Assembly (NCBI GenBank): GCA_015061985.1
Contig: SUVN01000006.1
Location: 1 to 64,000, forward strand
DNA: 64,000 bases
Direction: 5' to 3'
From: Akkermansiaceae bacterium
GTDB lineage: Bacteria > Verrucomicrobiota > Verrucomicrobiia > Verrucomicrobiales > Akkermansiaceae
In this document: piece by piece, positions 31,573 through 34,657 of the stretch
How positions within the stretch are numbered: position 1 is the first letter of the stretch
Layout: every line of letters starts with the position of its first letter
Program-made: the position numbers and the translations under genes
Notes under the pieces: generated by a model
Told to the model about the DNA's origin: nothing
The model's input: only the letters and a program-made list of their open reading frames with translations
Database searches by the model: none

Positions 31573-32790
31573 TCAACGCATGGTCACGGGATCTGCCACC
31601 GGGGCGACGGTGGAGCTGCCGTCGGCGTGCAGGCTCAGACAATAGGGCTGACCGTCGGGGCTGCGGGCATAGCGTTTCTCGCAGCAGTCGGCGTGGGAAC
31701 CATCCGCCCGCCAGAAGTATTCATAAGACTTGCTTCCGTCCGTGGAATAGAGACTCACTTTCTCCGCATACCCCTTGGCCGGGTTATCGCGCGGCAGGCC
31801 ATCCGGCCCGGCATAGCATTCCCACTCCGGCTGCCCCCCGGAAGTATGGCGCACCAGATGCTCCGTCCATCCATCAGGTGCAGGAGAAGGCGCTCCGCCG
31901 TTCATCTGCAAGAAGCTGCGCCTCATCCGGGTGGCGGGATAGTATTCCTGCACCACAGCAGAAGCCCCCACCTGCGGATGCACCACCGGCTTTCCCTCCG
32001 CATCCATCCACTCGCGCCGCAATTCCTGCCCATCTTTGTTGCGAACGATGCGTTGCACCGCCACGCCGCCGTCATTGTTCGCCGGAAAATCATGCACAAA
32101 GTTACGCCGACTTTCGACCCCGTAGGTATCATCGTATTCGTAGCGCACCGTCTCCTCTCCGGCAGAATCGGGTTTTGCCAGGCCGTTCACCCCCAGATTC
32201 CGAACCATCAGCGGCCGGCCCTTGGCATCATACACCGTCCGCTGCTCCGCAATGGCCGTGGGGTGCGCCACCGTCGGCTGCCCCTGCGCATTGCGATATG
32301 ATGTACGCACCAGATTCCCGTTGCCATCATAGGCGAACTCACGCACCGCCACCCCGGCAGCATCCTCTGCGGGTTTTCCATTCGCATCCAGATTCATGCG
32401 GCGGGTTACCCGCCCGGCCTCATCATACTCTACCGTCTGGGTGGCCACCCGGCTCCCCGGCAGGGCGTGCGGCTTCCCGTCTGCATTCACGAAGCGAGCC
32501 TCTACGGTGCGCCCCTCTGCATTCTGTCGCATCTGCACATGCGCCACGTTGGGCACAGCCCCTTTACCCAGCACCCCAACGGGCTGAGGCGGCAGAGGGG
32601 CAGCAGGATTACTCAATCCGACGCAGCAGACAACATTCGCGGGCTGCTCATGCAGCCTGAACACCCGCAATACACCGCTGCCCAGGGTTCCCCCCAGCAC
32701 CGCCACAACGGCCAGCGTGCCGGTATACCCCCACACCTGTTCCACCCAGCGCCAGTAACGGGGTGCCTGCTGCAATTCTTCCTCCTCCAT
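31573..32790 (-). CDS. Membrane-anchored YD/RHS-like repeat protein
   Basis: N-terminal TM; repeated VEYDEAGRVTRRMNLDANGKP / FAYDGNGNLVRTSYRNAQGQP / VYDAKGRPLMVRN. Confidence 0.55.
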   Translation of the reverse strand: MEEEELQQAPRYWRWVEQVWGYTGTLAVVAVLGGTLGSGVLRVFRLHEQPANVVCCVGLSNPAAPLPPQPVGVLGKGAVPNVAHVQMRQNAEGRTVEARFVNADGKPHALPGSRVATQTVEYDEAGRVTRRMNLDANGKPAEDAAGVAVREFAYDGNGNLVRTSYRNAQGQPTVAHPTAIAEQRTVYDAKGRPLMVRNLGVNGLAKPDSAGEETVRYEYDDTYGVESRRNFVHDFPANNDGGVAVQRIVRNKDGQELRREWMDAEGKPVVHPQVGASAVVQEYYPATRMRRSFLQMNGGAPSPAPDGWTEHLVRHTSGGQPEWECYAGPDGLPRDNPAKGYAEKVSLYSTDGSKSYEYFWRADGSHADCCEKRYARSPDGQPYCLSLHADGSSTVAPVADPVTMR

Positions 32791-32862
32791 ACCTCAGAGG
32801 AAACATTTCATTTGCAATAAGTTCGATAACAACTAGTATACCATTCGATAAATAACTGGGCG

Positions 32863-33276
32863 CTAGTATATCGTTCTGCAAATAATTCCACAAGTTTACA
32901 AAGAATAAATGGGAATTTGTAGAGGGAAGATGTGCGGGCAAGCCCGCACGCGAAATTGCCCTGACAGGCAGCGAAATTCATGGCTGGAGCCATGAGCGAA
33001 ATTATCCACTACGTGGATAGCGAAATTACCGCCGGAACGGCGGTAGTGAAAAAGAATGGCAGCCCAAAGGGCTGCGGAACTCTATCACTGCTGCCGGAGG
33101 CAGCAATTTCGCTGACAGCGTAAGCTGTTAATTTCGCTCGGCGAAAGCCGAATTTCGTTCGCGCCGCAGGCGAGAATTTCACTTCGCTCTTCAGAGCGAA
33201 CTTCCTCGACAAATTCCCATTGATCTACCGATGTGTCTATTTCTGCTGTTTAGCTATTTATCGAACGCTATACTAG
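32863..33276. mobile_element. MITE-like element with terminal inverted repeats carrying a hairpin array
   Basis: CTAGTATATCGTTC (32863) versus reverse complement CTAGTATAGCGTTC of 33263..33276. Confidence 0.65.
32932..33200. repeat. Hairpin array with GCGAAATT linkers (AATTTCGC in the right half)
   Basis: GTGCGGGC/GCCCGCAC, CATGGCT/AGCCATG, ATCCAC/GTGGAT, ACCGCCG/CGGCGGT, GCAGCCC/GGGCTGC, GCTGCC/GGCAGC, ACAGC/GCTGT, CGGC/GCCG, CGCTCT/AGAGCG stems. Confidence 0.85.
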
Positions 33277-33454
33277 TCTGACTTTCAACCGCTGAAACAC
33301 CTCTTCTGTTCAAACAAAATCCCCTGTTTTGCCGCCACTTTTCGCGTTCATCAGAATCTTTAGCCTTGAAACCTCATGAAAAAGAGTATAAAATGCCCGC
33401 GCGGAGCAGTAGAACAAGCTGATTCCGATAAACTTCCAACAAAATAACACAACT

Positions 33455-34657
33455 ATGGCAAAACTGACTGTTCGCGACCTCGACGTCGCCGGTAAGGAAG
33501 TCCTCATGCGCGTGGACTTCAACGTTCCCATGAAAGACGGCGTCATCACCAACGATGCCCGTATCGTGGCCGCCCTGCCCACCATCAAGTACCTGGTGGA
33601 AGGCGGTGCCCGCCTCGTGCTCTGCTCTCACCTCGGCCGCCCGGAGGGCACCGGCTATCAGGCCGAGTTCTCCCTGAAGGCTGCCGCTGAGTGCCTGTCC
33701 GGCCACCTGGGCAAGACGGTTGCTTTCGTTCCCGAGACCATCGGCGAGGCCGCCACGGCAGCCCGTGCTGCGCTGCAGGACGGCGATGTGCTTCTGCTGG
33801 ACAATGTTCGCTTCGACAAGAAAGAAAAGAAGAATGACCCCGAGTTCGCCAAGGCTCTTCTGGGCAACGCCACGCTGTATGTGAACGACGCATTCGGCTC
33901 TGCCCACCGCGCTCACGCCTCCACGGAGGGTGTGACCCACTTCGCCGAGAAGTCTGCCATGGGCTTCCTCATCGAGCACGAGCTCGAGTATCTGGAAGGC
34001 AAGCTGGAGACTCCCGAGCAGCCCTTCGTCGTCATCATGGGCGGCGCCAAGGTATCCGACAAGATTCAGGTGCTCTCCAAGCTCATGGAGAAGAGCCAGA
34101 CCTTCATCATCGGCGGTGCCATGGCCAACACCTTCCTGGCTGCTCAGGGCCACAACGTGGGCAACTCCAAGATTGAGGCCGACAAGCTGGACCTCGCCAA
34201 CGAGATTCTGGCCGATGCCAAGGCTCGCGGCGTGAAGTTCATCCTGCCCGTTGACACCCGCTATTCCTTCAAGTTCGAGGAAGGCGCAGAGACTTTCTGC
34301 ACCGCTCCCTGGGCAGAGGGCGGCGAGGTACCGGAAGGCGGCATGGGCATCGACATCGGCGACAAGGCCATCGAAAACATCTGCTCCATCCTGAAGAGCG
34401 CCAAGACCGTCCTCTGGAACGGCCCCATGGGCGTGTTCGAGCTGGATTCTTTCGCCGCCGGCACCAAGGCTGTGGCAGAGTGTCTGGCAGAGGCCGACTG
34501 CACCTCCATCGTGGGTGGCGGCGACTCTGTGACGGCTGCCAAGAAGTTCAAGGTGGCTGACAAGCTTTCCTTCTGCTCCACGGGCGGCGGCGCTTCCCTC
34601 GAGCTGCTGGAAGGCAAGGTTCTGCCCGGCATCGGCTCCCTGACCGACAAGGCATAA
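33455..34657 (+). CDS. pgk: Phosphoglycerate kinase
   Basis: VLMRVDFNVPMKDG, LVLCSHLGRPEG, WNGPMGVFE, IVGGGDSV. Confidence 0.97.
   Translation: MAKLTVRDLDVAGKEVLMRVDFNVPMKDGVITNDARIVAALPTIKYLVEGGARLVLCSHLGRPEGTGYQAEFSLKAAAECLSGHLGKTVAFVPETIGEAATAARAALQDGDVLLLDNVRFDKKEKKNDPEFAKALLGNATLYVNDAFGSAHRAHASTEGVTHFAEKSAMGFLIEHELEYLEGKLETPEQPFVVIMGGAKVSDKIQVLSKLMEKSQTFIIGGAMANTFLAAQGHNVGNSKIEADKLDLANEILADAKARGVKFILPVDTRYSFKFEEGAETFCTAPWAEGGEVPEGGMGIDIGDKAIENICSILKSAKTVLWNGPMGVFELDSFAAGTKAVAECLAEADCTSIVGGGDSVTAAKKFKVADKLSFCSTGGGASLELLEGKVLPGIGSLTDKA

Follow-up and report, generated by a model that had tools for sequence, protein, structure and literature searches.

The intergenic element at positions 32833..33276 of the window (the whole 64,000-nucleotide stretch analysed) and its relatives are best explained as MITEs of the IS630/Tc1-mariner kind that are probably mobilised in trans and carry replaceable cassettes, bounded by a short inner repeat and exchanged across several families of outer ends. 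The sequence directly gives the paired ends, the types of cargo and their two orientations, the mismatched ends, one empty site, and an IS630 element with ends of the same type. What is new is a cargo common to end families that differ in target duplication and in transposase class, the elements with mismatched ends, and the placement of the Gut-1 RNA among them. The existence of one cargo pool across the MITEs of mechanistically different transposases opens to study the replacement of MITE interiors, a process usually invisible because MITEs resemble insertion sequences with the middle deleted, and the orphan Gut-1 family gains a genomic setting and a nature open to testing.

The whole E-type MITE, including CTAG at either end, was delimited by its terminal repeats and by the double-end layout of other copies. 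It opens with the outer terminal repeat CTAGTATACCATTCGATAAATAACT (32833..32857, plus strand), recognised by its match to the end consensus, by complementarity and by BLAST, and resembling the right end of an IS630 element of the genome G087. It is followed by the E2 end (CTAGTATATCGTTCTGCAAATAATTCCACAAGTTTACAAAGAAT; 32863..32906, plus strand), the hairpin-array cassette of 316 bp with the inner inverted repeat AAATGGGAATTTG at both limits (32907..33222), as established by inner-end pairing, other carriers and the fold, and the E1 end (CTAGTATAGCGTTCGATAAATAGCTAAACAGCAGAAATAGACACATCGGTAGAT; 33223..33276, minus strand), the two ends being assigned by BLAST and comparison with other copies. The terminal repeats (32832-32857 and 33252-33277) are 26 nt long and 88% complementary, and the same tandem-end layout recurs in C22, C3, G034:C32, G009:C90 and G009:C70. 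A sequence-only reading had confined the element to 32863-33276 and noticed a further end-like sequence beside its left end; the right limit and the presence of that sequence hold, whereas the start has to be moved to 32833, because the sequence supposed to lie outside is the outer terminal repeat of the element itself. The neighbours are a minus-strand gene without a confident family (31573-32790) and pgk (33455-34657), so that the element lies between divergent genes.

The second E-type MITE of the window, in the opposite orientation and with CCGG at both ends, occupies 7401..7680 by end-consensus matches and BLAST, which corrects the formerly given limits of 7398..7683 and gives CCGG flanks instead of CTAG, the presence of the copy being upheld. 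The comparison of interiors and inner ends assigned to it a heptamer cassette of 180 bp (7455..7634). As had been proposed, both ends are common to the two elements in opposite orientation, since BLAST finds E1 as well as E2 at each of the two sites, and the interiors are unlike, namely heptamers at 7455-7634 and GYGAAATT hairpins at 32907-33222. The 19-base terminal consensus has five matches in the window with at most three mismatches (7404+, 7659-, 32836+, 32866+ and 33255-), as compared with 0.01 expected in shuffles. The window elements, of 280-440 bp, occur in many copies, have inverted ends and contain no transposase gene.

The E family is characterized by the terminal repeat GTATAGCGTTCGATAAATA and the target preference CTAG. 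At least 14 complete E1-E2 elements were found in G000, G007, G009 and G034, with three types of cargo, namely the hairpin array, the heptamer array and the GTGGTGACAGC module, which bears out the suggestion of modular cargo within common terminal sequences. The window genome (2.37 Mb in 53 contigs) is an Akkermansia, in the same genus as the goat and roe-deer gut MAGs in which these ends recur; most genomes compared are fragmentary MAGs, and many element copies sit at contig ends. Diverged E-type elements with hairpin or heptamer-like cargo are present in another Akkermansia species, G079, while the E1 pattern gave no match in viral contigs. Among the 67 distinct E end sequences, the terminal dinucleotide (TA in 49, TG in 9 and CG in 5) is preceded by C in 62, and the first element base is G in 65. 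Two copies stand in CTAA sites (G007:C27 and G007:C67), which a 2-bp TA duplication fits better than a 4-bp one, and a duplication of TA at the target is probable from these flanks. The CTGG or CCGG flanks (14/67 ends) lie outside the fit with the TA duplication, and at G034:C32 the left flank is CTGG and the right flank CCAG, so that the two form an inverted, not direct, repeat.

The copy in G009:C90 interrupts a gene, and its flanks, joined over one CTAG, give an open frame that aligns with the intact gene of G079 at 77% identity and gap-free at the junction; this was the one copy tested for an empty site, and it indicates insertion with target duplication. The common ends could otherwise be conserved promoters or terminators belonging to the host, in agreement with the intergenic position of both window copies and with the few terminator-like hairpins in the array of 32833..33276. 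Such an origin is, however, highly improbable, as the ends are paired and inverted around different interiors, and it is contradicted by the G009:C90 copy. The sequence-only reading had itself stated that its interpretation would fail if the ends never occurred together with their opposite partner, and the pattern found is that of paired E1 and E2.

A candidate for the transposase that could act in trans, for which the same reading had advised a search, was found between E-type ends in a relative and not in the E-bearing genomes. The searches with DDE_3 and DDE_Tnp_1 gave no E-flanked transposase in the window genome and other E-bearing genomes, DDE_3 being absent from G000, whereas the genus-wide DDE_3 search disclosed in another Akkermansia (G087:C26) an IS630-family transposase located between two E-type ends within CTAG (NCBIfam IS630, 8.6e-48 in one open frame and 9.6e-13 in the other; DDE_3, 2.1e-29). 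The right end of this element closely resembles the outer ends of the E elements, which thereby share their ends with an IS630-family element. The target preference of IS630 is TA in CTAG, according to the title of Tenzen and Ohtsubo (1991) as cited in PMC2170065. Since the G087 element has matching E-type ends, we infer that the E1 and E2 ends (about 40-55 bp) would hold the transposase sites, and that an IS630-family enzyme would cut and paste the E elements in trans into CTAG or CTAA, with duplication of TA. The conditional is kept because no E-flanked transposase was found in the E-bearing genomes and because the G087 transposase reads in two separate frames, so that this copy may be inactive; the E elements might be active at the present day.

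Two other enzymes were considered and rejected as partners of the E ends. The C-terminus of an IS110-type transposase adjoins E2 at G000:C49, but the same interior also abuts E1 at C11, and IS110 therefore seems to be an insertion inside cassettes. In the corresponding locus L028 (G000:C49:1-270), where this C-terminus stands beside a cassette, the downstream interior is also found at C11 and C6. The IS5-type transposase of G079 is flanked by ends of another kind (GGGGACCTCTAAAAACTC), corresponding to the J ends described below. A lone relic end at G009:C50:37039 has no adjoining transposase.

Nearly every interior starts and ends with a form of the inner inverted repeat AAATGGGAAnTTGnnGGG, whose 13-base core matches G000 exactly at 18 sites as against none for the reversed control, and whose longer form occurs in 9 of 59 Akkermansia genomes, with none for the control. 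This inner boundary is surrounded by various outer ends, namely E, F, J and H. The F ends (TATTGCTCCGGCAAT) are of the IS630 type with TA and also flank other IS630 transposases; the J ends (GGGGACTTCTAAAAACTC) are of the IS5 type with a 4-bp duplication (ATTT in L194) and match the ends of an IS5-type element in L237; the H ends (CACRCGTGTCCCAAAG) are associated with a duplication of about 9 bp, such as the 9-bp GATAAGCAA in L203 (G011:C119). Elements with mismatched ends were also found, of the kinds E1-F4, F2-E2, F4-E2 and H-J (two). The heptamer cassette of the H-like carrier in G000:C49 is 99.4% identical to that of an E carrier in a different species (G007:C67) and 87.8% identical to the E-carried copy of the window at 7401. 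The hairpin cassette is inverted in C23 and C25 relative to the window copy, and the heptamer cassette in C33 relative to the copy at 7401.

The common cassettes in both orientations, the mismatched ends, and the identity of 99.4% versus 87.8% require an exchange of cassettes. The cassette between the ends is described here as a replaceable unit bounded by AAATGGGAAnTTGnnGGG, which would become inverted within the E elements and be swapped between them and the F, H and J MITEs, which depend on other classes of transposase, most likely by template switching or recombination, both at the inner repeats and inside the common cassette sequence. The main rival to recombination at the inner repeats is a dedicated cassette enzyme, i.e. 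the inner cassette would itself be mobile, its hairpin-forming ends CGACAAAT-GGGA-ATTTGTCG being recognised by a recombinase or a single-strand transposase, and would have entered many MITEs without target duplication. The identical inner boundary within many unrelated outer ends agrees with such mobility, as do the copies without a recognised outer end (e.g., G000 C8 and C10 and those of G019), some of which, however, may have outer ends so far unrecognised. With no enzyme associated, no target duplication at the cassette boundary and no cassette-free carrier among the E elements found, a mobile cassette is considered possible but unlikely, and recombination at the inner repeats is preferred as the probable route. 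In three loci of G019 (L153, L146 and L161), a TACTAKG-heptamer cassette has nearly bare palindromic ends of the same form, and in L153 it directly follows a stop codon.

The hairpin cassette forms a branched tree over its whole length (z of -10.9 as RNA and -12.7 as DNA against shuffles), because the linkers GCGAAATT of the left half pair with AATTTCGC of the right half. Its two halves match the full model of the Gut-1 RNA (RF01706), one on each strand: 32969..33057 on the plus strand (36.1 bits, E 1.3e-5) and 33126..33208 on the minus strand (35.4 bits, E 1.9e-5), both below the gathering score of 50, which is exceeded by related arrays of the window genome with up to 62.9 bits. Gut-1 matches were found in 27 of 77 Akkermansia genomes, in 16 of them above the cut-off, while of 291 genomes drawn across the class just 2, both of Akkermansia, had a match above it. 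The arrays are comparable with REP/BIME repeats, which are intergenic palindrome arrays with RAYT transposases; both are arrays of palindromes, but those of Akkermansia differ in having GYGAAATT linkers. Gut-1 was proposed in 2010 as a noncoding RNA from environmental sequences only and from the human gut only (PMC2864571), its hairpins being connected through G[CU]GAAAU as in the hairpin cargo; in contrast to the noncoding human-gut RNA of that description, the Akkermansia arrays are inverted, and some lie in mobile elements. It may be tentatively supposed, with somewhat less than even confidence, that a pool of hairpin-ended cassettes is common to Akkermansia MITEs of four or more end families, which three or more classes of transposase would serve, and that Gut-1 is one DNA cassette of this pool and not a dedicated RNA gene.

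In 80% of the 92 distinct segments between the linkers, stems reach 4 pairs or more, as compared with 24% of shuffles, and this excess, together with the fold far better than that of shuffles and the original proposal of Gut-1 as a noncoding RNA, could mean that the Gut-1 arrays are functional RNAs, a useful cargo of the MITEs whose hairpins are kept by selection at the transcript level. We regard this as quite unlikely, as Gut-1 matches both strands of the array, itself an extensive inverted repeat, such arrays are oriented either way and also stand in tandem clusters, and the element 32833..33276 contains no promoter-like site. DNA-level correction of palindromes would likewise keep the hairpins, and either this or RNA-level selection would give the excess of stems. 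Apart from the E elements, the window contains at 903-987 (plus strand) a Gut-1 match of 58.9 bits, above the gathering score, and at 1089-1170 its weaker mirror half (minus strand, 43.9 bits), the two forming another inverted hairpin array, here without E ends. About ten Gut-1 matches of alternating orientation are gathered within 2.6 kb at G000:C11:47004-49583 (L011 and L018).

The nearest precedents are the pneumococcal RUP and the BOX of Streptococcus suis. The RUP of Streptococcus pneumoniae is a 107-bp unit with terminal repeats like those of an IS630-family insertion sequence, for which movement in trans has been proposed (PMC3049150); it is, like E, a short repeat with IS630-related ends, but a simple unit, whereas the E ends hold several kinds of interchangeable cassettes. 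The BOX elements of S. pneumoniae and S. suis are modular, and in S. suis the boxA/C and boxE/F pairs surround the same boxB modules (PMC3049150), i.e. two end pairs share one interior module as in Akkermansia; however, both pairs belong to one repeat class, while the Akkermansia ends are of different transposase families and target duplications and form mismatched-end elements. BrickBuilt and MITE464/PgRS of Porphyromonas gingivalis combine similar terminal repeats with unrelated tandem-repeat interiors (PMC4596501), but their ends are of the IS5 type, and cargo common to different end families is not reported for them. The TIMEs are mosaic, Tn3-derived, non-autonomous ends with different core modules (PMC4133298) and differ from E by 38-bp Tn3 ends, 5-6 bp duplications and larger cores from composite transposition. 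No paper on Akkermansia MITEs was found in the open-access literature searched.

A second small repeat, with the ends TGTCTCGTC and GACGAGACA, was observed at CTAG sites beside E ends in L066 (G009:C90, within 936-1070), and also in L027 (G000:C33), to the right of the E element. Inside an E-type element of G079 (L218:1380-1418, G079:C77), there is a weak match to Acido-Lenti-1, another orphan Rfam family, with 29.7 bits against the gathering score of 37.
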